Of a stretch of DNA of 64,000 bases, positions 6,133 to 44,552 are shown in pieces. Positions within the stretch are counted from its first letter, which is position 1, and the number at the start of each line of letters is the position of its first letter. The notes beneath the pieces were generated by a model. The model ran no database searches. It had not been told where the DNA came from and saw nothing but the letters and a program-made list of their open reading frames with translations. A program made the position numbers and the translations under genes. The stretch comes from Bifidobacterium scardovii JCM 12489 = DSM 13734 (GTDB lineage: Bacteria > Actinomycetota > Actinomycetes > Actinomycetales > Bifidobacteriaceae), in contig NZ_AP012331.1 of assembly GCF_001042635.1 (NCBI RefSeq), forward strand, positions 1,116,001 to 1,180,000, read 5' to 3'.

Positions 6133-6978
6133 ATGACCAATCCGATTCTGTCCATGAACCAGGCGACGATCAAGTACGCCGACCTGCGCCAGACCCTCGA
6201 CACGCTCACCGCGGCCGGATACCGGAGCGTCGGCCTGTGGCGCGAGCCCGTCGAGGCCGTGGGCCTCGACACCGCCGTCAAGATGGTGGCCGACTCCGGG
6301 CTGCGCGTCTCCACGATGTGCCGCGGCGGCTTCTTCACCATGCCCGAGGGCGCCGCCCGCCGCGCCTCCATCGACGACAACCGCAAACTCATCGAGGAGA
6401 CCGCCGCCTTCGGCTGCAAGGTGCTCGTGCTCGTCGTCGGTGGTTTGCCGGAAGGTTCCAAGGACCTGATCGGCGCCCGCGCCCGCGTCGCCGACGCCCT
6501 CGCCGAGCTGGAGCAGGACGCGCTTGCGGCCGGCGTGACGCTGGCCATCGAACCGCTGCACCCGATGTACTGCACCGACCGCGCCTGCGTGTCGACGCTC
6601 GGCCAGGCGCTCGACCTCGCCGCGCCCTTCGACCCGAAGGCCGTCGGCGTCACCGTCGACACCTTCCACATCTTCTGGGATCCGCAGGTGCTCGACTCGA
6701 TCGCGCGCGCCGGCCGCGAGGGGCGCATCGCCACGTACCAGGTGTGCGACTACCGCACCCCGTTCGAGAAGGACGTGCTCCTGAGCCGCCACTACATGGG
6801 CGAGGGCGTCATCGACTTCAAGAGCCTCACTGAGGCCGTGGCCGCCACCGGCTGTCGCGGCGACATCGAATGCGAGATCTTCAATCAGGCCGTCTGGGAC
6901 ACCCCGTTCGACCAGGTCGCCGCCAAGGTCGCCGACTCCTTCGACAAGGAAGTCGCGCCGTACTGGCCGGTCCGCTAG
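6133..6978 (+). CDS. TIM-barrel sugar phosphate isomerase/epimerase
   Basis: A 281-residue xylose-isomerase-like TIM barrel (AP endonuclease family 2 fold). Metal-binding residues typical of the family are visible: Glu in LAIEPLHPMY, Asp/His in VTVDTFHIFWDP and Glu in DIECEIFN near the C-terminus. Members include inosose isomerases, dehydratases and keto-sugar epimerases. AAAGGACC precedes the ATG. It is the last intact gene of the operon, 43 bases after the DUF993 gene. Its TAG stop (6976-6978) lies in the left arm of the 96-bp repeat, exactly mirroring what is seen at mazF. Confidence 0.85.
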   Translation: MTNPILSMNQATIKYADLRQTLDTLTAAGYRSVGLWREPVEAVGLDTAVKMVADSGLRVSTMCRGGFFTMPEGAARRASIDDNRKLIEETAAFGCKVLVLVVGGLPEGSKDLIGARARVADALAELEQDALAAGVTLAIEPLHPMYCTDRACVSTLGQALDLAAPFDPKAVGVTVDTFHIFWDPQVLDSIARAGREGRIATYQVCDYRTPFEKDVLLSRHYMGEGVIDFKSLTEAVAATGCRGDIECEIFNQAVWDTPFDQVAAKVADSFDKEVAPYWPVR

Positions 6979-7070
6979 TATCCCGCGCCGTAAGTTCGTG
7001 TCCTATGTCTGACTCCCCTCAGAGAGGGGGAGCCGGAATTACTCAACGAATTAACAACGCGGGATACTAG
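6975..7070. repeat. 96-bp inverted-repeat element, copy 2
   Basis: Same length and order as the copy at 2572-2667: left end CTAGTATCCCGCGCCG, right end CAACGCGGGATACTAG, and a central hairpin (CTCCCCTC / GAGGGGGAG). Relative to copy 1, a T to C change in the left arm (CCTGCG to CCCGCG) is matched by an A to G change in the right arm, so pairing is preserved. Its first bases include the stop codon of the upstream isomerase gene. Confidence 0.85.
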
Positions 7071-7167
7071 CCGAACGGGGGCCGGAGGGAACCTCCGCAC
7101 GGCGGGATCCATAATCGCGGTGCGGAGGCTGACGAGCCGATTCATCCGTATACAGACAAGGAATGCG

Positions 7168-8298
7168 ATGGCAATGATGTACAACGTGCGCGACTACGGC
7201 GCGAAGGCCGACGGTGTGACCAACGACGCCGCCGCCATCCAATCGGCGATCGACGGCAACGCCTAGGCCTTCCCGAACGAGGGCTCCATCTACCGGCCGA
7301 TGATGATCCGCCTGCTGCGCTGCCGCAACGTGCACGTCGAGAACCTGCGCCTGTACGAGGCCGCCGCATGGACCACCGCGTTCCTCGACAGCGAATACAT
7401 CTGGGTGCGCGGCGTCGACATCAAGAACGACAAGCGCTACAACGGCGACGGCCTCGACTTCGACGGCAGCGCCCATGTGTTCGTCTCCGACTGCTACGTG
7501 CGCGGCACCGACGACAACTTCTGCCTGCAGGCCAGCAGCAAGGACCATCCGGTGCACGACGTGCACGTTACCAACTGCGAGTTCACCGGCGTGTGCGCCG
7601 GCTTGCGCTTCGGCCTCAAGTCCATCGGCGACATCTACGACGTGACCGTCTCGAACTGCACGCTCAACCGCGTGTGGCGCGAGGGCATCAAGATCGAATG
7701 CACCGAGGGCGGCGCGATCAGCGACATCTCCTTCGACAACATCGTGATGCGCAACGTCACCCGTCCGGTGTCCGCGATCCTCAACAGCCGTTTCGAGCTT
7801 GACGGCTACGGCACGTCGGTCGAGCTGGACCACATGCCCGAGATCGGCGCGATGTCGCGGATCAGCATCACCAACCTGACCGCCACCGACGATGAGGAGA
7901 TGGCGAACGTCCACCGCCGCTTCACCGACGACGTGATGGGCGAGCCCCGCTTCAACGGCATCCGCTTCGACGCGGCCGAGGGCCACCCGATCGAGGACGT
8001 GGCGCTCGACGGCATCCGCTACACCTTCATCGGCGGCGTGAAGCAGTCCGACATCCCGGCCGAATACCCGCGGCTGGTGGACAAGCTCGCCGAGCCGGGC
8101 GTGAAGTCGAGCGAGAACTACTGGCCCGACTGGTCCCGCGCCGCGTTCATGGACCTGCGCAACGTGCGCGGCCTCGACATGACCCGCATCCGCCTGCACG
8201 CGATCCGCCCGGACGAGCGTCCGGCCGTGCTGCTCGACGGCTGCGCGACCTACGCGCCGGCCGATGTGCGCGTCGACGGCGAACCGCTCGCGCCGTGA
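7168..8298 (+). pseudogene. Glycoside hydrolase family 28 (polygalacturonase-like), broken
   Basis: The frame starts MAMMYNVRDYGAKADGVTND, the classic GH28/pectate-lyase-like N-terminus, continues to IQSAIDGNA and then hits an in-frame TAG (7264-7266). The same frame resumes at once with FPNEGSIYRPMMIRLLRCRN and runs to 8298 with GH28 landmarks (NGDGLDFDGS, GTDDNFCLQ, CAGLRFGLKS, REGIKIE). About 100 or more residues expected between the two parts are missing. The gene therefore has an internal deletion plus a stop. The 3' part might still be translated from an internal ATG (7300) but would lack the N-terminal coils. It probably belonged to the upstream sugar operon. Confidence 0.8.
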
Positions 8299-8384
8299 CG
8301 GCCCGTGTCGTGACCCGTCAATCAGGGCCTCGTTAATACAGGATCAATAATCCGTAAGCAATCGGTCAATGAATTCCCGATAGC

Positions 8385-36840: not shown

Positions 36841-37821
36841 ATGCTGAAGATTCTGTTTGCCGGCACGCCCGAGGTGGCCGTGCCGTCGTTGCGCGCACTG
36901 GCCGCCGACACCGAGCATTTCGAGATCGTGGCCGTGCTCACCAGGCCGGACGCGCCGACCGGCCGCGGCCGCAGGCTCATGCCGAGCCCCGTCAAGCAGG
37001 CCGCGCAGGAGCTCGACCTGCCGGTGATCGAATCCGACCCGTCCGAGGAAGACTGCTTCGTCAGCCAGCTGGCCGCCACCGGCGCGCAGGCCGCCGCGGT
37101 GGTCGCCTACGGCAAGATCCTCAGGCAGTCGGTGCTGGACGCGCTGCCGCTGGGCTGGTACAACCTGCACTTCTCGATGCTGCCCAAGTGGCGCGGCGCC
37201 GCGCCCGTGCAGCGCGCGATCTGGGCGGGCGACGCCTCGACCGGCGTGAGCGTGTTCCGCATCACGCTGGCGATGGACGAGGGTCCGATCATCGCGCAGT
37301 GCGCCACCGACATCGACAAGCACGAGAACGCCGGCGACCTGCTGAACCGCCTTGCGGTCAGCGGCGCCAGCGTGTTCGTGCGCGCGCTGCAGGCCCTTGA
37401 CGAGGGCCGCGCCGCGGCTGTCGAGCAGCAGCACGGCGACTATCCGATCGCCGACAAGATCCGCGTCGAGGACGCGCACATCCGCTTCGGCGTGCCCGTC
37501 GCCGACGTGGACCGCCAGATTCGCGCGTGCACGCCGAACCCGGGCGCATGGTGCCTTCTGCATGCGGAGGGCGATGGGGACGACGCCGTCGAGCCGACCA
37601 CGCTGCATGTGCTGCGCGCGCAGCCGGCGGACGCCGACGGCCCGAACGTGCCGGCCAATCCGGGCGCCGGGCGGTTCGTCGTCGGCAAGAAGAACGCATG
37701 GGTCGGCACCGCGTCCGGCGTGCTGGAGCTGCTTGAGGTCAAGGCGCAGGGCAAGAAGGCCATGTGCGCCGCCGACTGGGCGCGCGGCGCCCGCCTGGCC
37801 GAATCCGCCTACTGCGACTGA
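36841..37821 (+). CDS. fmt: Methionyl-tRNA formyltransferase
   Basis: A 326-residue enzyme that formylates initiator Met-tRNA with 10-formyl-tetrahydrofolate. The N-terminal LKILFAGTPEVAVPSLRAL, the folate/catalytic motif NLHFSMLPKWRGAAPVQRAI (Asn and His) and MDEGPIIAQ are diagnostic. The C-terminal OB-fold domain is present (RFVVGKKNAWVGTASG). AAAGGACC lies before the ATG. A hairpin repeat (37835-37881) follows the stop, then a relic of the serB 3' end. Confidence 0.95.
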   Translation: MLKILFAGTPEVAVPSLRALAADTEHFEIVAVLTRPDAPTGRGRRLMPSPVKQAAQELDLPVIESDPSEEDCFVSQLAATGAQAAAVVAYGKILRQSVLDALPLGWYNLHFSMLPKWRGAAPVQRAIWAGDASTGVSVFRITLAMDEGPIIAQCATDIDKHENAGDLLNRLAVSGASVFVRALQALDEGRAAAVEQQHGDYPIADKIRVEDAHIRFGVPVADVDRQIRACTPNPGAWCLLHAEGDGDDAVEPTTLHVLRAQPADADGPNVPANPGAGRFVVGKKNAWVGTASGVLELLEVKAQGKKAMCAADWARGARLAESAYCD

Positions 37822-37834
37822 ACGCGGGTGTGGG

Positions 37835-37881
37835 GGCTCCCCTCCATGAGGGGAGCCGTCCGCGTGGCGGATTGAGGGGAG
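37835..37881. repeat. Double-hairpin intergenic repeat after fmt
   Basis: GGCTCCCCTCCATGAGGGGA, GCCGTCCGCGTGGCGGATTG and AGGGGAG: the typical hairpin - small CCGC/GCGG stem - arm order. It lies just after the fmt stop. Confidence 0.75.
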
Positions 37882-37907
37882 CGGCCCCGCTGTTCGTATT
37901 TCGTATT

Positions 37908-37972
37908 GCGCTACCGGCGCAGCAGGTCGAGCACCTTGGTCAGGTCGCGCTCGTTGAGCGCGTAGTCGGCCG
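37908..37972 (-). repeat. Left 65-bp direct repeat: relic of serB 3' end
   Basis: These 65 bases are identical to 43844-43908. On the minus strand they encode the last 19 residues of SerB (ADYALNERDLTKVLDLLRR) plus its TAG stop, but nothing of the gene lies upstream of them here. It is a duplicated gene end, and with the right copy it brackets the 5.9-kb sugar cassette. Confidence 0.92.
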
Positions 37973-38038
37973 TTGCGGAATCTTCCTGCCGTTCGGCCTA
38001 TGTCCGTAGTGGGCGATTCGGGCTCTGCCCAACGCATT

Positions 38039-38085
38039 GGCTCCCTCTATGAGGGGAGCTGTCCGCATAGCGGGCTGAGGGGAGC
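38039..38085. repeat. Double-hairpin intergenic repeat inside island edge
   Basis: GGCTCCCTCTATGAGGGGAG, CTGTCCGCATAGCGGGCTGA and GGGGAG. Together with the one at 37835-37881 it flanks the serB relic in the same orientation. Confidence 0.75.
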
Positions 38086-38340
38086 GCTGGGTGTGACGTT
38101 ATTGATCCTAGTGCCGTCATTGCGGATATGAATGACATGCGGCGATAAAGTGATGGGGCATAGTAAGTATCCGGGAAATGGCTCTTGAATCCCCTCATAA
38201 TTTTGTCTGTGTCCACATTCGTATGAGTGGAACATGCTTGTGTTTCAGTCTTTCGCTAAAGATGTTCCCTGGGGGAAAAACATGGGAGACGACACCTTGC
38301 TTGCTGCTCCCCAAATGCGTTATCTCTGAATCTGCAGCGA

Positions 38341-38383
38341 ATCATCAAACTGTTTTGACGGCATTATCAAACCGGTATAACTT
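38341..38383 (+). promoter_or_regulatory. Promoter and operator of the LacI regulator gene
   Basis: TTGACG (38355-38360) and TAACTT (38378-38383) are separated by 17 bp. The -35 overlaps an imperfect palindrome TCAAACTGTTTTGA (38345-38358). TCATCAAACT at its left is repeated in the promoter of the binding-protein gene (39562-39571), suggesting that one regulator acts at both. Confidence 0.5.
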
Positions 38384-38433
38384 GAAAATACAAACGATTC
38401 GACGATGAGTCCAGGGGAAGGAGGTGAAGTTGA

Positions 38434-39459
38434 ATGAGACCAACGATTGCAGATGTCGCGCGCGAAGCGGGAGTTACCAAAGGCACGGTGTCCCATGTGT
38501 ACAACGGTCATCGTCCCATCTCCGCTCCGACCAAGGAACGGGTGAGGGCCGCGGCTAAGAAGCTCGGGTGGGTTCCCAATGCCAATGCTTCTGCTTTGGC
38601 GGGACACCATACGAATGCAGTTGGTCTGGTATTGCATAAGAATCCGGATGCGTTGGCCGTTGATACCTTCTTTCCGGTGTTCATCTCCGGTATGCAGGCC
38701 GAGCTCTCGCAAAGGCAGGTCATGCTGGCCATGCAGGTGGTGGACAGTCAGTCCGCCGAGGAACGTGCGTATCGGAGTATGGCGCACGGGCGTGCCGACG
38801 GCGTTGTGGTGCTGGACATCCATCGTAAGGATTGGCGTATTCCATTTCTTGCAAAGCTTAGGCTACCGGCCGTGCTCATGGATGTACCTCGTGATTATCC
38901 GGGATTCACCGCGGTTCGCATCGACAGCGGTCGGTCGATGGAGGAACTTGTCGACCATTTGCGAGCGCAGGGGCATACTCGTATCGCGCATGTGTCAGGT
39001 CCGCTGGATTATGTGCATGCTTATGAACGTGCTGCGGCATATGTTCGCACAATCGGCAATAAGGAGCTGTTGCGGCAGGGAGATTTCACCGCGCAGTCAG
39101 GTCGTCGGCTGACATCCGAGCTTCTGTCGCTGTCTTATCCGCCAACGGCTATCATCTATTCGAACAACGTCATGGCTATTGCCGGACAGTCCTATGCACA
39201 GGAACAGGGGCTGCGCATTCCCGAGGATCTGGCTCTTGCGGGATTCGAGGATGATGAGATATGCGCCCATCTTAATCCCCCTCTCACCAGTGTTGATACC
39301 GGGCCGGCGGAACGTGGCCGGCTGGCAGCTCAACAGTTGGTGCAAGTCGTTGCCGAGACGTTCCCCGAAAGCGTTACGGCTCCGGCACCTGTCATCCGGT
39401 ACCGTGGCAGCACGGAGGGCAAGTCTCCGCCCGGAGACTGCGATCCCCGTGATGTTTAG
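38434..39459 (+). CDS. LacI-family transcriptional regulator
   Basis: A 341-residue regulator. The helix-turn-helix is TIADVAREAGVTKGTVSHVY followed by hinge GWVPNANASALAG, and the periplasmic-binding-protein-like core has typical pieces (ADGVVVLDI, LMDVPRDYPG, IYSNNVMAIA, LALAGFEDDEICAHLNPPLT). It should repress the adjacent sugar genes until its sugar effector binds. AAGGAGGTGAAG is an excellent ribosome binding site. Codon use is visibly more A/T-rich than in fmt or serB, in keeping with a transferred island. Confidence 0.92.
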   Translation: MRPTIADVAREAGVTKGTVSHVYNGHRPISAPTKERVRAAAKKLGWVPNANASALAGHHTNAVGLVLHKNPDALAVDTFFPVFISGMQAELSQRQVMLAMQVVDSQSAEERAYRSMAHGRADGVVVLDIHRKDWRIPFLAKLRLPAVLMDVPRDYPGFTAVRIDSGRSMEELVDHLRAQGHTRIAHVSGPLDYVHAYERAAAYVRTIGNKELLRQGDFTAQSGRRLTSELLSLSYPPTAIIYSNNVMAIAGQSYAQEQGLRIPEDLALAGFEDDEICAHLNPPLTSVDTGPAERGRLAAQQLVQVVAETFPESVTAPAPVIRYRGSTEGKSPPGDCDPRDV

Positions 39460-39558
39460 ATTCTCCGTCAGCGTCCAACTGGCTGAATCATTTCGACTTC
39501 ATTCATGACGTGCATGGCGAAGCCATGTCTTGACGGCCTTCTCAAAGCTGCAATCAAC

Positions 39559-39587
39559 TTTTCATCAAACTAGGGTGTGTTTACATT
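39559..39587 (+). promoter_or_regulatory. Probable promoter of the sugar transport operon
   Basis: TTTTCA (39559-39564), 17-bp spacer, TACATT (39582-39587). The spacer starts with TCAAACT, also present at the LacI gene promoter, which may be part of the regulator binding site. Confidence 0.45.
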
Positions 39588-39631
39588 ATTTGAGTTTTGT
39601 AATAAACCAATCCACTCGAAGAGGAGTAATC

Positions 39632-40912
39632 ATGAACAAGCATTTACTGCGTAGGACCGGCTGCACGATTGCGGCGCTTGCGATGACGATATCGATGGGG
39701 GCTTGCGGCGCGAAAATTCAAGGTGATTCGTCCGGCACAGGCCCGATCAAAATATGGCTGTCGAATAACGAGCAGGAGGTCACTTGGGGCAAGGACATGG
39801 TCAAGGCTTGGAATGAGAAGCATCCGGACCAGAAAATCACCGATCAAGAGATTCCGGCCTCCTCATCTTCCGAAGAGGCTATCACTGCCGCTATAACTGC
39901 AGGTACCGCACCGTGTCTGGTATACAACATCTCTGCGGCCGCGGTACCCGGATGGGTACGTCAAGGCGGTCTGGTCGATCTGGGCCAGTTCGATGGCGCG
40001 AACCAGTACATTACAGAACGTTCCGGCGACGGGGTGAACATTTACCAGACGGATGGCAAGTATTATCAGATGCCGTGGAAGTCTAATCCGGTAATGGTCA
40101 TGTATAACAAGGATATCTTTAGTAAAGCTGGCATTGACGCAGACAATCCCAATATCGGTACTTTTGACGGTTTTCTCGATGCAGCGCGCAAGATCGTCAG
40201 TTCCGGTGCCGCGCAAACCGCCATTTGGCCGGCTCCGACCAACGAGTTCTACCAGCCGTGGTTCGATTTTTACCCGACATACCTGGCTGAAACTGATGGA
40301 ACTCCGCTCACTGAAGATGGTAAAGCGACGTTTAATGATGAAGCCGGCAAAAAGGTCGCCACATTCTGGAAGACGATTTATGATGAGAAACTTGCTTTTC
40401 AGGAGAAATCCACTGACGATGCGATGAGCACCGGCAAGACCGCCATGCAGATGGCCGGTCCATGGGCCATCGCTTCATACAAGGACACCGTGAATGTCGG
40501 AGTTGCCCCGGTCCCGACCAGCGACGGTAAAACCGATCCGTACACCTATGCCGATGCCAAGAATGTGTCCATGTTCACCACCTGCGCATACCAGCAGACC
40601 GCTTGGGAATTCCTGAAGTTCACCACCAGCGAGGACGCGGACGGCAAACTTCTCGAGGCTACTGGTCAGATGCCGTTGCGGAAGAATTTGCCCGGCACGT
40701 ATGCGGAATACTTCCAGAAGAATCCGGCATATGAAGTCTTCGCCAAGCAGGCCGAGCATACCAGCGATGTGCCGAGCCTGACGAATTCCACGGAGGTATG
40801 GCAGGAATTCCGGAAGGATTATTCCGCGGCGGTGATTTTCGGTAAGGGAACCGTTGATGAATTCCTCGATACGGCCGCGACCAATGTGGACAAGCTGCTC
40901 AAACAGAACTGA
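39632..40912 (+). CDS. Sugar ABC transporter solute-binding lipoprotein
   Basis: A 426-residue family 1 binding protein. The N-terminus has a signal peptide (LRRTGCTIAALAMTISMGAC) ending in a lipobox-like MGAC, so Cys should be lipidated. Then comes IKIWLSNNEQEVTWGKDMVK and the C-lobe motif MSTGKTAMQMAGPWAIASYK. The sequence TTNEFYQPWFDF-type insertion points to an oligosaccharide ligand (inference). GAAGAGGAGT precedes the ATG. It is the first gene of the transport operon with two permeases and a GH130 enzyme; no ATPase gene is present, so it must share one from elsewhere. Confidence 0.92.
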   Translation: MNKHLLRRTGCTIAALAMTISMGACGAKIQGDSSGTGPIKIWLSNNEQEVTWGKDMVKAWNEKHPDQKITDQEIPASSSSEEAITAAITAGTAPCLVYNISAAAVPGWVRQGGLVDLGQFDGANQYITERSGDGVNIYQTDGKYYQMPWKSNPVMVMYNKDIFSKAGIDADNPNIGTFDGFLDAARKIVSSGAAQTAIWPAPTNEFYQPWFDFYPTYLAETDGTPLTEDGKATFNDEAGKKVATFWKTIYDEKLAFQEKSTDDAMSTGKTAMQMAGPWAIASYKDTVNVGVAPVPTSDGKTDPYTYADAKNVSMFTTCAYQQTAWEFLKFTTSEDADGKLLEATGQMPLRKNLPGTYAEYFQKNPAYEVFAKQAEHTSDVPSLTNSTEVWQEFRKDYSAAVIFGKGTVDEFLDTAATNVDKLLKQN

Positions 40913-40954
40913 CCTGCGCCACATTGTTTTGACCAAGCAAAGGAAACAACTACT

Positions 40955-41893
40955 ATGAAACGTTTGGCTGATCATTCTATGAATGGCAGCGAAAACGACA
41001 GCAACCGTGGGCTGCGTCGTCGTTTGTTCGGCGCGCAGCCTATCGGCACGATATTCGCCTTGCCGTACTTTGTGTTCGTGCTGGTCGTATTCGCATACCC
41101 ATTATGTTTCGCGGTATACATGGCGTTCCACGATTACTTCTTCACAGCTCCCGGGGTCAGCACGCCCAAGCCGTTCGTAGGGATACGGAACTTCCTGACT
41201 GTCCTCGGCGATCCTGACGTGCTGCAGTCCTTCCGCAATATCGCGGTATTCCTGATCATCAATGTACCGTTGACCGTGATCCTGTCCATGGTGCTCGCTT
41301 CGGCATTGAATGCCGGTATCCGGTGGGCGTCGGCATTCAGGGTCGCGTTCTATCTGCCGTATATCACGGCGAGCGTGTCACTGGTCGGTGTGTGGATGCT
41401 GTTGTTTTCCACCCATGGACTGGTGAATGCCGTCCTTGGCAAATTGGCGCCGGACCCTTCCTGGCTGGTAAACGAGCATCTGGCCATGCCGTCGATTGCT
41501 CTGTACGTGACATGGAAGCAACTCGGCTTTTACATTTTGCTGTATCTCGCCGCATTGCAGAATGTGCCGAAAGAACTGCACGAGGCGGCGGAAGTCGATG
41601 GCGCCAACGGGTTGCAGCGATTCCTGAACGTGACGGTGCCCGGCGTGCGATCCACAACCACATTGGTACTGGTACTGGCGATCATCACCGGCGCGAATCT
41701 GTTCACCGAACCGTATCTGCTCACCAACGGCGGCGGTCCGGACGGCGCGTCCGCGACCCCTGTGCTGCTCATCTACCAAAAGGGACTGCAGCAGCAGAAT
41801 CCTGATCAGGCTGCTGCAATCGGCATGATTTTGGTGATCGTTGTCGGCGTGCTGTCGCTAATCGCTAACAAGCTTAACGAGGAGAGGCCATGA
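40955..41893 (+). CDS. Sugar ABC transporter permease 1 (MalF-like)
   Basis: A 312-residue membrane protein with about six TM segments, for example TIFALPYFVFVLVVFAYPLC and FLIINVPLTVILSMVLASAL. The conserved EAA loop that contacts the ATPase is ELHEAAEVDGANGLQRFLNV. The N-terminal 30 residues are polar and cytoplasmic. AAAGGAAAC lies before the ATG. The gene overlaps the second permease gene by 4 nt. Confidence 0.92.
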   Translation: MKRLADHSMNGSENDSNRGLRRRLFGAQPIGTIFALPYFVFVLVVFAYPLCFAVYMAFHDYFFTAPGVSTPKPFVGIRNFLTVLGDPDVLQSFRNIAVFLIINVPLTVILSMVLASALNAGIRWASAFRVAFYLPYITASVSLVGVWMLLFSTHGLVNAVLGKLAPDPSWLVNEHLAMPSIALYVTWKQLGFYILLYLAALQNVPKELHEAAEVDGANGLQRFLNVTVPGVRSTTTLVLVLAIITGANLFTEPYLLTNGGGPDGASATPVLLIYQKGLQQQNPDQAAAIGMILVIVVGVLSLIANKLNEERP

Positions 41894-42729
41894 GAAAATC
41901 GCATCCGATCATCACGATTGTACGTTATGCGTTACTGGTGTTTGCCGCGGTCATTTTCGCCTTTCCGTTTTATTTCATGGTTGTTGGAGCGTTTCAGAGC
42001 AATCCGACGAATACCCCGGACCGTCTATTGCCGTTGTCCGGATGGACGACCGGTAATTTCATCAACATCAATGCCCGTATCGATCTGCTCGGTTCTCTGT
42101 GCAATTCGTTGATCTTCGTGTGCGGCGTGTTGCTCGGAACGGTCGTCTTCGGGCTGCTGGCCGGATATGCGGTCGCACGTATGGATTTTCGCGGTAAGGG
42201 CGTGGTCTGGATACTGATGCTGCTGGTGCAGATGGTCCCGTTCCAACTGCTCATGATTCCGCTGTATGTGCAGGTGACCCGAACCTATGGGCTTGGCGAT
42301 ACGTACCTGGGCATGATTCTGCCGTTTGCGATCAACACCACGGCCGTGTTCATCTTCATCCAATTCTTCAAGTCATTGCCGGCGGACATCTTTGAGGCAG
42401 CTCGTGTGGATGGTGCCGGAGAACTGCGTATCCTGTGGACCATAGCGATTCCAATGGTTCGTCCGGCGTTGGCGACCGTGGTGCTAGTGACGTTCATCGG
42501 TCCGTGGAATGAGTTCCTGTGGCCGTTCCTTATCACCAAAGATGTCTCTATGCAACCGTTGGCGGTATCACTGGCAAATTACATCTCGACGGTCAGTCAG
42601 TCCGTCGCCAACCCGAATGGTGCCATTCTGTCGGGAGCTGCGACATTCGCATTCCCTGTCATTGTGCTGTTCTGCCTGTTCCAGAAATATTTTGTCGCGT
42701 CGGATATCGGTTCCGCGCTGAAAGGATAA
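41890..42729 (+). CDS. Sugar ABC transporter permease 2 (MalG-like)
   Basis: A 279-residue membrane protein with six predicted TM segments. The EAA loop is DIFEAARVDGAGELRILWTI, and PWNEFLWPFLIT is a common C-terminal MalG feature. Its ATG overlaps the stop of permease 1 (ATGA), so the two are coupled and likely form a heterodimer. The ribosome binding site GAGGAGAGG lies within the end of permease 1. Confidence 0.93.
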   Translation: MRKSHPIITIVRYALLVFAAVIFAFPFYFMVVGAFQSNPTNTPDRLLPLSGWTTGNFININARIDLLGSLCNSLIFVCGVLLGTVVFGLLAGYAVARMDFRGKGVVWILMLLVQMVPFQLLMIPLYVQVTRTYGLGDTYLGMILPFAINTTAVFIFIQFFKSLPADIFEAARVDGAGELRILWTIAIPMVRPALATVVLVTFIGPWNEFLWPFLITKDVSMQPLAVSLANYISTVSQSVANPNGAILSGAATFAFPVIVLFCLFQKYFVASDIGSALKG

Positions 42730-42734
42730 CCATT

Positions 42735-43745
42735 ATGATCAACACCAGCTTTTTTACCGGTGCTTCGTTTCCGCTCGGTCCATTCGTACCATATGAGCAC
42801 AATCCGATCCTTCGTCCGTTGGGTGGCTCGTGGGAGTCGGCGAACTTGTATAATCCCGCTGCACTGGTGGTTGATGATGAGGTCGTGTTGCTGTACCGGG
42901 CGCATGCCGAGGATATCGTGTCGCATATCGGTATTGCGCGCAGCAAGGACGGGCTGCATTTTGAGCGTGAGTCCGAGCCGGTTCTGTCTCCAAGCGAGGA
43001 TTACGAACGATATGGCTGCGAGGATCCGCGTGTCAGCGTGATCGATGGTGTGTACTACCTGACCTACACCGGTTGGGATCGTCATAGCGCGCAGCTGTGC
43101 CTTGCGACATCGACCGACCTGCATCATTGGACGAAGCATGGGCCGTTGTTTTCGGATTTCGATACGTTTGCGGCGACGCCAGATGCGCATGGGTTCAATT
43201 GGTCCAAGGCCGGAGTCATCGTGCCGTTCAAAATCCAAGGCAAGTGGTGGATGTACTTTGGAGAAGGCTCGATTTATTGGGCGACCAGTGACGATCTGGT
43301 CCACTGGGTACCGGGAACATCCGATGCCGATCCGATGTATCGGCCCACGCCTGGCACCTTCGATACCGATCTGGTTGAAATAGGCGCGCCTCCCGTGATG
43401 ACCGACAACGGTTTGCTGCTATTCGTGATGAATGGTGCCACTCGTACGCCGCGTGGAGAGAACGCGTGGGATGTGGATTATCGTTGCGGACAGTTCGCCG
43501 TTGATCCTGCTCGTCCGACCAAGGTAATCGCCCGCATGCAGGAACCGTGGCTGAAGCCGCAGACCTTTGAGGATCATAACGGATTGATCCCGAACGTCAC
43601 TTTTGTGGAAGGATTGGTGAAGTTCCATGGCAAATGGTTCGCCTATTACGGACAATCCGATACTACGCTTGCTGTGGCGGTCTGCGACCCGGATTTGCCA
43701 TGGGGAGACGATTTCCGCGTTGAAGTGATGAACAGCGGAATCTGA
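42735..43745 (+). CDS. Glycoside hydrolase family 130 protein
   Basis: A 336-residue five-bladed beta-propeller enzyme of family GH130, which includes beta-1,4- and beta-1,2-mannoside phosphorylases and some hydrolases. Seen motifs are NLYNPAALVVDDEVVLLYRA, YGCEDPRVSVIDGVYYLTYT, WDRHSAQLCLATSTD and GEGSIYWATSDDLVHW. It has no signal peptide, so it would act on the imported oligosaccharide in the cytoplasm. It starts 5 bases after permease 2. This points to a beta-mannoside as the island's substrate. Phosphorylase or hydrolase mode cannot be decided without structure-based comparison. Confidence 0.88.
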   Translation: MINTSFFTGASFPLGPFVPYEHNPILRPLGGSWESANLYNPAALVVDDEVVLLYRAHAEDIVSHIGIARSKDGLHFERESEPVLSPSEDYERYGCEDPRVSVIDGVYYLTYTGWDRHSAQLCLATSTDLHHWTKHGPLFSDFDTFAATPDAHGFNWSKAGVIVPFKIQGKWWMYFGEGSIYWATSDDLVHWVPGTSDADPMYRPTPGTFDTDLVEIGAPPVMTDNGLLLFVMNGATRTPRGENAWDVDYRCGQFAVDPARPTKVIARMQEPWLKPQTFEDHNGLIPNVTFVEGLVKFHGKWFAYYGQSDTTLAVAVCDPDLPWGDDFRVEVMNSGI

Positions 43746-43764
43746 TCTTTTTTGGGATTATTAC

Positions 43765-43798
43765 AAAGCGGAGCCCGGGGAACTGGGCTTCGCTCTTT
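43765..43798 (+). terminator. Terminator at the end of the sugar operon
   Basis: AAAGCGGAGCCC and GGGCTTCGCTCTTT pair with one bulge around an 8-base loop. It lies 19 bases after the GH130 stop and before the right direct repeat. Confidence 0.7.
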
Positions 43799-43843
43799 GC
43801 TCAGACATTAGGGGACGGATGATCGTTCCGTATACCCCGCTAC

Positions 43844-43908
43844 GCGCTACCGGCGCAGCAGGTCGAGCACCTTGGTCAGGTCGCGCTCGTTGAGCGCGTA
43901 GTCGGCCG
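43844..43908 (-). repeat. Right 65-bp direct repeat: intact serB 3' end
   Basis: Identical to 37908-37972. This copy is the real end of serB. Outside the 65 bases the two loci diverge at once on both sides. Confidence 0.92.
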
Positions 43909-44521
43909 CGAGCTGGGTCTTCGGCTTCGCGCAGAACGCGATGCCGAGCCCGGCGGTCTGGATCATCGGGATGTCGTTCGCGCCGTCGCCGACGGCCACG
44001 GTCTGGGCCATATCGACGCCGTCGCGCTTGGCCCACGCCTGCAGGGCGTGCAGCTTGCTCGTCTTGCACACGATGCTGCCGACCACCTGGCCGGTGAGCT
44101 TGCCGTCGGCCAGCTCGAGACGGTTCGCCAGCCAGTAGTCGATCTTCGCCTCCGCCGCCAGACGGTCCACCACCTCGTGGAAGCCGCCCGACACGACGCC
44201 GACCTTCCAGCCGTACGCATGCAGCTCCTCGATCAGTTCGATTGCGCCACGAGTGAAATGCAGCGAGTCGTGCACGGTGTCGAACACCGACACGGGAAGG
44301 CCCTTCAGCAGCGCCACGCGCGCACGGAGCGCCTCACAGAACTCCATCTCGCCGCGCATCGCGCGCTCGGTCACTTTGGCGATCTGCTCGCCGCATCCGG
44401 CGGCCTCTCCCAACTGGTCGATGACCTCCTCGTCGATCAGCGTGGAGTCCACATCCATCATCAGCAGACCGGGCCGGCCCAGCGTGGGTGTGTCAAAGTC
44501 TTGCAATAGTTCCTCAGGCAT
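43847..44521 (-). CDS. serB: Phosphoserine phosphatase
   Basis: A 224-residue HAD-superfamily enzyme that makes serine from O-phosphoserine. Motif I is LMMDVDSTLIDEE, motif II is VGVVSGGFHEVVDRL and motif IV VAVGDGANDIPMIQTAGLGI. The length fits short SerB without the N-terminal ACT domain. The ATG at 44521 is chosen because GACAAT lies exactly 7 nt upstream on the minus strand and no Shine-Dalgarno sequence exists; it is probably leaderless. Its last 62 bases have been duplicated at the far side of the sugar island. Confidence 0.93.
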   Translation of the reverse strand: MPEELLQDFDTPTLGRPGLLMMDVDSTLIDEEVIDQLGEAAGCGEQIAKVTERAMRGEMEFCEALRARVALLKGLPVSVFDTVHDSLHFTRGAIELIEELHAYGWKVGVVSGGFHEVVDRLAAEAKIDYWLANRLELADGKLTGQVVGSIVCKTSKLHALQAWAKRDGVDMAQTVAVGDGANDIPMIQTAGLGIAFCAKPKTQLAADYALNERDLTKVLDLLRR

Positions 44522-44528
44522 ACTTCCG

Positions 44529-44552
44529 ATTGTCTGAAATCGCTGGGACAAT
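44529..44552. promoter_or_regulatory. Divergent overlapping promoters of serB and dedA
   Basis: GACAAT occurs on the minus strand (44534-44529) and on the plus strand (44547-44552), each exactly 7 nt before its ATG. The two start codons are only 38 bases apart, so the upstream promoter parts of each overlap the other. Confidence 0.6.

Follow-up and report, generated by a model that had tools for sequence, protein, structure and literature searches.

Gene islands that retain the marks of integration at the 3' end of a host gene have been described before. According to a genome survey of cis-mobilizable elements (CIMEs), these are decayed ICEs or IMEs that retain attL and attR; the CIMEs reported there are 1.2 to 13 kb long and lie in composite islands at gene 3' ends, rpsI and fda being examples of the target genes, and 10 of them carry carbohydrate-metabolism genes (PMC7563491). 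According to its authors, the signature-gene search of that survey was unable to detect CIMEs that occur singly, and many were probably overlooked (PMC7563491). A second relevant example is provided by the vcr islands of Dehalococcoides, where, in the published description, low-GC catabolic cargo lies between ssrA and a direct repeat of the ssrA 3' end (PMC3146451).

Here, we describe a sugar operon that lies between two copies of the 3' end of serB in a 64,000-nucleotide stretch (the window; all island and flanking coordinates refer to it) of the chromosome of Bifidobacterium scardovii JCM 12489 = DSM 13734. B. scardovii is a human-associated bifidobacterium, and bifidobacteria vary widely in the sugars that they use. 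The insertion scar at this locus is intact, so that the place where the DNA entered, its cargo, and its borders can be given to the exact base.

Repeat pair and island content

The segments at positions 37908 to 37972 and 43844 to 43908 are direct repeats with 65/65 identical bases and a start-to-start distance of 5,936, and both copies diverge at the very first base outside, on either side. The original prediction had described just such a perfect repeat with divergent flanks, and direct reading of the sequence and a repeat finder gave the same result. The right copy (minus strand) is the working 3' end of serB, comprising the in-frame end of the gene and three bases beyond its stop codon. 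This gene (43847 to 44551, minus strand; HAD family in Pfam) encodes phosphoserine phosphatase and is intact, aligning to its end with 13 relatives. The left copy (minus strand) is an att-like, 5'-truncated serB 3' end that codes for the last serB codons and the stop and nothing more. The reading frames are thus as predicted, with the true serB end on the right and a serB tail with its stop codon on the left. A search of the whole B. scardovii genome with positions 37880 to 38000 as the query returned two full copies of the repeat, the third match being a 25-bp stretch within a gene that, judged by eye, resembles one for an ABC-transporter ATPase. Of the 62 repeat bases that are coding, 15 to 19 (24 to 31%) are mismatched in each of the six relatives compared.

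A chance repeat was rejected, given that about 5e-30 exact 65-bp pairs are expected in 6.4 kb, and the repeat census described below also speaks against it. The published genome of B. scardovii is finished, and its assembly combined 454 reads with Sanger reads of 2- and 10-kb inserts (PMC4392160); an assembly artefact is unlikely, as Sanger reads are presumably longer than the repeat. The 65 bp include an inverted repeat with 7-bp arms and a GTT loop, which is not unusual, as 58 of 737 control windows score just as well.

The DNA between the repeats (37973 to 43843, 5.87 kb) has a GC content of 54.3%, versus 65.2% for the window, 71.6% for fmt, and 65.5% for serB, in line with the earlier description of this island as A/T-richer than fmt and serB. 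The third-codon GC is 59 to 71% in the five island genes and 88 to 94% in fmt, serB, and metK. The native left neighbor, fmt (36841 to 37821, plus strand; Pfam Formyl_trans_N/C), encodes methionyl-tRNA formyltransferase. All five island genes are on the plus strand, and their Pfam families agree with the cargo proposed originally: a LacI-family regulator (38434 to 39459; LacI and Peripla_BP_3), an ABC sugar-binding protein (39632 to 40912; SBP_bac_8/SBP_bac_1), two ABC sugar permeases (permease 1, 40955 to 41893, and permease 2, 41890 to 42729; both BPD_transp_1), and a GH130 enzyme (42735 to 43745; Glyco_hydro_130). The best PDB matches of the latter are 3qc2, 3r67, and 5a7v, and its closest solved structures are those of the beta-1,2-mannosidase group. 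A hairpin seen by eye in the GH130-serB spacer (43765 to 43798) is a putative bidirectional terminator.

The segment that adjoins the far repeat (37973 to 38433, 49.9% GC) is noncoding. It contains a REP-like repeat (38043 to 38086), which, used as a query, had 57 matches in the genome; an interspersed REP-like repeat with 86% identity to it is found in the spacer on the fmt side (37840 to 37883, plus strand). Recombination between these two REP-like repeats was considered and rejected, as it would delete the left serB copy. Among the matches listed, none in the genus covered this noncoding segment outside its REP-like part and a 48-bp stretch upstream of lacI (38340 to 38387, plus strand). 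This promoter/operator-like stretch shows 90% identity in three genomes (G005, G024, and G073) and 83% over 40 bp in a fourth (G080), and it may serve as an operator.

The prediction that the island lacks a recombinase was corroborated by two kinds of search. Pfam comparison found no recombinase, relaxase, or transfer gene among the five island proteins, and a tblastn search with nine recombinases of the same genome yielded no convincing integrase remnant in the island, including its noncoding segment; the best match (E value of 0.019) fell inside permease 1. Encoding no site-specific recombinase, the island does not qualify as an ICE, an IME, or an integrase-bearing genomic island. Nor is it a composite transposon or IS cassette, there being no transposase family among its five proteins. 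The repeat finder detected no inverted repeat of at least 18 nt at the island ends.

For the repeat census, we collected exact direct repeats of at least 30 bp located 1 to 40 kb apart, using 30-mers present in 2 to 4 copies, and assigned them to classes by eye. A contiguous 464 kb of the chromosome contained four pairs, namely, a tRNA-like pair, the serB-end pair, and two REP-like pairs. The second segment, of 400 kb, contained 14, of which 6 came from one tandem gene duplication, 2 from integrase elements, and 5 from REP-like repeats; the remaining 30-bp pair, at 490673/492441, fell outside all classes. Across these 864 kb, the pairs that are not tandem, tRNA-like, or REP-like are those of the two integrase elements, the serB-end pair, and the 490673/492441 pair. 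The two tyrosine-integrase elements served as positive controls. One has a 47-bp repeat (391894/399895) of a tRNA-Met 3' end, an integrase match at 392673, and an interior with 51.1% GC; the other has a 39-bp repeat (290069/301387) of a tRNA-Ser 3' end, an integrase match at 290920, and an interior with 54.3% GC.

The fmt-serB locus and the sugar operon in other genomes

A search for serB detected matches in 99 of 112 genomes, but those in four were too weak to represent serB. Strong matches were present in 94 other genomes; 80 of these loci were counted, that of G080 was added later, and 13 were left out; the gaps between fmt and serB were measured from the edges of the tblastn matches, and the 80 loci were grouped by a script. 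In 58 loci, fmt and serB are convergent and at most 273 bp apart; they are likewise convergent but farther apart in 7, whereas fmt is on the opposite strand in 9 and is not in reach in 6. The gap exceeds 600 bp in 7 of the 80 loci, including that of G059. The inserted DNA is absent between fmt and serB in all 80 loci, and none of them has a second serB end. Eleven short extra matches (18 to 31 bp) to the serB end region were found in nine loci, 10 of them inverted; the sole direct one, in L064, spans 18 bp, and none of the 11 is a second serB end. An empty site with a single repeat copy is thus found in the 58 close convergent loci, all of them from other species, with serB protein identity of no more than 85%. 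The comparison of related genomes suggested with the original prediction accordingly had, in these other species, the anticipated outcome, a single serB end. The opposite outcomes, two copies of the 65 bp in relatives devoid of the sugar genes or ancestral sugar genes without the left repeat, were sought in these other species, and neither was seen.

No integrative element was seen at serB in the 80 loci, where the nine B. scardovii recombinases had matches only in L067 and L069, both Xer-like and 9 to 10 kb from serB. Viral contigs, phages, and plasmids contained no convincing match to the serB end; partial matches in 13 plasmid records (E values of 0.004 to 0.05) were taken as chance, and a peptide-pattern search matched 101 stretches, none of which was confirmed. 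No report of serB as an integration site in Bifidobacterium was found among the titles and beginnings of abstracts listed, a weak kind of evidence.

In G059, the fmt-serB gap is occupied by a lacI-SBP-permease-permease set that differs from that of B. scardovii and has a 675-aa open reading frame behind it. This operon is not accompanied by a serB duplication, and a search for an att-like repeat pair at the locus gave one 21-bp pair, outside the G059 island. The presence of a sugar operon in the same gap without a duplicated serB end speaks against entry as a circle, the reading preferred below.

Near-full-length relatives of GH130 (79 to 83% identity) are encoded in 3 of the 111 other genomes, the Bifidobacterium genomes G031, G080, and G050; five further genomes with only short weak pieces (E values of 3e-10 to 4e-4) were excluded. 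In all three, the GH130 locus is away from serB and the fmt-serB gap is empty (193 bp, about 23 bp, and 26 bp, respectively), and no att-like pair, sought as an exact repeat of at least 18 bp, 1.5 to 20 kb apart, surrounds the GH130 locus. The complete lacI-SBP-permease-permease-GH130 set is present in G031 (58 to 83% protein identity) and G080 (70 to 84%), with the same gene order as in B. scardovii but elsewhere in the genome, unlike the island at serB; G031 has an additional open reading frame behind GH130, GH2-like by eye. In G050, GH130 alone is close, the lacI and permease matches being at 25 to 31% identity, and no binding-protein match is among those listed. When the binding protein alone was compared, relatives with 32 to 66% identity were found in 15 named contigs, whose titles point to Actinomycetota (12 contigs), Dormiibacter (2), and Neomarinimicrobiota (1). 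Protein-database entries, which are clustered and therefore not comparable between genes, include four for serB at 98 to 99% identity (26 contigs in all), one for LacI at 99% (1 contig, 17 members), and none above 91% for GH130; a further LacI match has 90% identity.

Origin of the insertion

The presence of inserted DNA between fmt and serB is a derived state, and this DNA is of foreign composition and has a perfect gene-end duplication at its two edges. The explanation that we favor, as probable though far from certain, is that a horizontally acquired operon entered by a single reciprocal crossover between the serB 3' end and a copy of it on a circle. A beta-mannoside-type sugar operon would have been gained by horizontal transfer on a molecule, presumably circular, that carried a copy of the serB 3' end; the crossover would have restored the complete serB gene on the right, with a 5'-truncated copy of its end remaining beside fmt and about 5.9 kb of cargo between the two. 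One full and one truncated serB, direct repeats, and the native downstream sequence on the far side are what a single crossover predicts, and the repeat edge 3 bp beyond the serB stop codon is where integration at the 3' end of a gene would be expected to leave it. As to the agent, it is quite conceivable, if somewhat doubtful, that a site-specific recombinase, since lost, carried out the crossover, so that the island would be a decayed CIME-like element with attL and attR; within the same circle reading, RecA could have done so instead. The serB end diverges between species, so a copy brought from another species should not be identical, and the perfect identity over this coding stretch points to a same-species or in-place source of the second copy; an att site from another species is hard to reconcile with it. 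For tyrosine-recombinase elements, repeats of 8 to 60 bp are given in PMC5704250, a range that the 65-bp serB repeat slightly exceeds. In its present state, the island should not excise by itself; a repeat-repeat crossover, by RecA or by a recombinase acting in trans, would restore serB in intact form, with a clean junction between it and fmt. Of the original proposal that an element entered at the serB 3' end and left att-like repeats, what holds is a derived insertion of foreign composition with a second serB end seen only in this genome and a layout analogous to that of the two integrase elements. The identity of the repeats as att sites did not gain such support: neither an integrase nor a remnant of one was found in the island, and no convincing match to the serB end was found in viral contigs, phages, or plasmids.

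The same scar would be expected from RecA integration of a circle or from illegitimate insertion of linear DNA. The latter, homology-facilitated illegitimate recombination with a linear donor and no mobile element, is possible but rather doubtful. One end of the donor would have recombined in serB, and an illegitimate junction would have attached the other at a point 62 bp into the serB 3' end of the recipient. The left side would then retain the recipient's own serB tail, and the serB gene on the right would be that of the donor or a chimera. The island's lack of a detectable recombinase fits this route, the 65/65 identity is compatible with a same-species donor, and the gap does hold other DNA without a serB duplication (in G059 and, more generally, in the loci with gaps above 600 bp). 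Nevertheless, it requires a B. scardovii-like donor with the operon already at the serB stop, of which none was seen, and by itself leaves the resemblance to the two integrase elements unexplained. The serB gene offers no help in this respect: its third-codon GC rises from 76.9% in the first third to 98.7% in the last, the rise is smaller in five of six relatives and nearly absent in the sixth, and, given this similar trend, nothing was drawn from it as a donor signal.

We regard it as unlikely that, in Bifidobacterium, the gap between the convergent fmt and serB genes is a slot in which sugar operons dock and are exchanged, a view under which the lacI-ABC-GH130 cassette of B. scardovii with its serB-end repeats and the different lacI-ABC cassette of G059 would be recombinase-less cassettes moved as circles, via the serB end, either through homologous recombination or by a trans-acting enzyme. 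Still less should be expected of an in-place target-site duplication, in which DNA would have been captured where a long staggered break had cut the serB end, and fill-in or template switching would have generated the 65 bp: it would account for copies that are identical despite the coding divergence from the six relatives, but 65 bp far exceeds the 8-bp duplication of a transposase element described in PMC5704250, and the coincidence with the stop codon is left without explanation. The least credible alternative is that the left copy is a leftover of an older local serB duplication, independent of the arrival of the sugar genes, since an old remnant should not stay identical at all 65 positions, the repeat edges are the island edges on both sides, and no relative's locus has a second serB end.

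Comparison with known mobile islands

The closest parallels to the circle reading come from the same genome. At the tRNA-Met and tRNA-Ser elements, as at serB, a gene 3' end is directly duplicated around low-GC cargo. These elements use tRNA genes and shorter repeats than that at serB, and they carry an integrase, whose Pfam match begins some 0.8 kb away from the far repeat, whereas the serB island has none. The vcr islands, as described, likewise combine low-GC catabolic cargo with a duplicated gene 3' end; they differ in having a 20-bp repeat and an RNA gene as the target, in forming a set of many islands, and in that 16 of them have an integration module with a serine recombinase at its head (PMC3146451). 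Unlike CIMEs, the serB island has no related integrase-bearing element found at serB and no ICE or IME remnant found. It shares with the surveyed CIMEs the placement of cargo between direct repeats, one of which is the intact 3' end of a housekeeping gene, the lack of an integrase or transfer gene, and a size within their range, as well as, with some of them, carbohydrate cargo. In its layout, the serB island resembles known mobile islands whose own integration enzyme has been lost and, if the CIME reading is true, would be one of the single CIMEs that the survey's search was unable to find.

The serB repeat pair and direct repeats in the chromosome

Bifidobacterium scardovii JCM 12489T comes from human blood (PMC4392160), and its genome is a single contig of 3,158,347 bases. 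In the window, positions 37908-37972 and 43844-43908 are identical at 65 of 65 positions and diverge immediately beyond both edges, as found both by reading the sequence and with a repeat finder; a search of the genome returned full copies at these two places only. The right copy is formed by the end of the intact serB gene and the three bases that follow its stop codon. The left copy, a 5'-truncated serB end, begins 86 bases after the fmt stop. The intervening DNA encodes five proteins, all on the plus strand: a LacI regulator, a sugar-binding protein, a pair of permeases, and a GH130 enzyme. There is no recombinase, transposase, or transfer protein among the five. The sharp-edged identity, the true and fragmentary serB ends, the cargo, and the missing recombinase had all been described in the original prediction and are borne out by the sequence and the gene families. 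The pair is more than chance, the expectation for a 65-bp pair in 6.4 kb being about 5e-30.

Exact direct repeats of at least 30 bp, 1-40 kb apart, were sought in 864 kb of the chromosome and classified by eye. The 464 kb around the window contain 4 such pairs (one tRNA-like, the serB-end pair, and two REP-like), and the other 400 kb contain 14: 6 from a single tandem gene duplication, 2 that bound integrase-bearing elements, 5 REP-like, and one 30-bp pair outside these classes. The copies of this last pair (genome coordinates C1:490673 and C1:492441) are separated by 1.8 kb and lie within a few kb of an integrase match at 488221. The series of exact repeats at C1:170562-174400, with its constant 2,912-bp spacing, suggests a tandem gene duplication. 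A REP-like palindromic repeat of ~48 bp is dispersed in the genome, with 57 matches, including window positions 37840-37883 and 38043-38086. Counting by hand, with 40 of 147 candidates scored initially, gave 15 pairs in inverted orientation whose starts are separated by 62-108 bp; they resemble REPIN-type doublets. Relatives of this repeat were found in 28 of 112 Bifidobacterium genomes, that of B. scardovii included.

The fmt-serB junction in other bifidobacteria

The comparison comprised 80 serB loci fetched from relatives and, later, that of genome G080; 13 further serB-bearing genomes lie outside it. The fmt and serB genes are convergent with a gap of up to 273 bp in 58 of the 80 loci; the gap is larger (622 bp to 7 kb) in 7, and fmt is not within reach of serB in 6. 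In 9 loci (L041, L044, L064-L070), the neighbor of the serB end is priA instead, and fmt is encoded on the opposite strand. None of the 80 loci, all from other species, has a second serB end, and the 58 close junctions among them show the empty site anticipated in the original prediction; the G080 junction is likewise empty. The island (37973-43843) is also A/T-richer than its surroundings, as had been claimed: its GC content is 54.3% (window, 65.2%), and GC at third codon positions is 59-71% in its genes versus 88-94% in fmt, serB, and metK. Near-full-length relatives of its GH130 protein are encoded in 3 of 111 other Bifidobacterium genomes (G031, G080, and G050), in each case away from serB and with an empty fmt-serB junction. 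The island gene order recurs in G031 and G080, where the proteins are 58-84% identical. For G050, GH130 alone is close (79%), and the lacI and permease products are at 25-31%. Close relatives of GH130 and the binding protein were also found in other Actinomycetota. The island is therefore a derived insertion, and we infer that it was acquired horizontally.

Genome G059 holds a different sugar operon in the same gap (locus L046, 1998-8962). It has another lacI gene, encoded on the opposite strand, together with genes for a binding protein and two permeases and a 675-aa ORF that by eye looks GH127-like; there is no serB duplication there. Sugar operons are therefore tolerated in the convergent fmt-serB gap of more than one species, whether or not the repeat is present, which supports a permissive place at which the B. 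scardovii scar marks one particular entry route. Gaps of 1.0-1.6 kb are seen in L035 (G040; 6873-8309), L083 (G010), and L080 (G047).

Predicted function of the cargo

The closest solved structures to the GH130 protein are 3qc2, 3r67, 5a7v (presumably BT3780), and 3taw; the phosphorylases 9fj8, 7fip, 5ay9, and 3was are less similar to it. One study describes 3qc2 as BACOVA_03624, a Bacteroides beta-1,2-mannosidase like BT3780, the latter without phosphate-binding residues and with Glu227 and Glu268 proposed as catalytic base (PMC4599007). With alignment positions counted by hand, both glutamates appear to be conserved, within the motifs YFGE and VEIG; the lysine described as determining beta-1,2 specificity has no clear alignment. 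The enzyme is predicted to act on beta-mannosides as a hydrolase, not a phosphorylase, and probably inside the cell, where its substrate would be supplied by the ABC importer under LacI control. A promoter/operator-like 48-bp stretch (38340-38387) is 90% identical in G005, G024, and G073, three species with no GH130 match; in G005 it lies upstream of an ORF that, by eye, appears to encode a GH32-type enzyme.

Route of entry and comparison with known elements

If serB and a circular molecule carrying a serB 3' end underwent a single reciprocal crossover, the result would be full serB on one side, a 5'-truncated end followed by native downstream sequence on the other, and the cargo between them. 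The observed layout is what one such crossover leaves, and the resulting picture is the same for site-specific and RecA crossovers. The repeat pair may have been made by site-specific recombination, as in a cis-mobilizable element (CIME), a decayed ICE/IME that keeps attL and attR: the serB stop codon is 3 bp inside one edge of the repeat, and this architecture is shared by two integrase-bearing elements on the same chromosome. However, no integrase remnant was found, even in the 460-bp GC-poor segment beside the far repeat; nine recombinases of B. scardovii, used as queries, matched in only 2 of the 80 relatives' serB loci (Xer-like, 9-10 kb from serB); and a convincing match to the serB end was not found among viral contigs, phages, and plasmids. 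Moreover, across its 62 coding bases the repeat agrees with the six relatives compared at only 43-47 positions. A tRNA att site is alike between species because tRNAs are; the serB end is not. Since the two copies are identical while this end varies between species, the second copy would seem to have come from the same species or arisen in place. Perfect identity weighs against an element that recently brought its att site in from another species, but not against one circulating within B. scardovii. The original observation is confirmed, and its interpretation, entry at the serB 3' end leaving att-like repeats, is partly supported: the derived insertion flanked by the serB-end duplication stands, whereas no integrase remnant was found in the island and no integrative element was seen at serB in the 80 relatives' loci.

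The two integrase-bearing elements occupy tRNA-Met (C1:391894-399941, 8.0 kb; 47-bp repeat at 391894 and 399895; integrase match at 392673) and tRNA-Ser (C1:290069-301425, 11.3 kb; 39-bp repeat at 290069 and 301387; integrase match at 290920), with the repeats in the tRNA 3' ends. GC content is low inside these elements as well (51.1% and 54.3%, respectively), and both keep the integrase at the far-repeat end, where none was found in the island. A review places tyrosine-recombinase elements with repeats of 8-60 bp at the 3' ends of housekeeping genes (PMC5704250); at 65 bp, the island repeat slightly exceeds that range. The CIMEs described in a survey span 1.2-13 kb and keep att sites after losing recombination genes; ten carry carbohydrate-metabolism genes, and the survey's own method was unable to find single CIMEs (PMC7563491). 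Set beside these systems, the island is a well-marked genomic island of an ordinary kind, probably what remains of a CIME-like element or a scar left by recombination.
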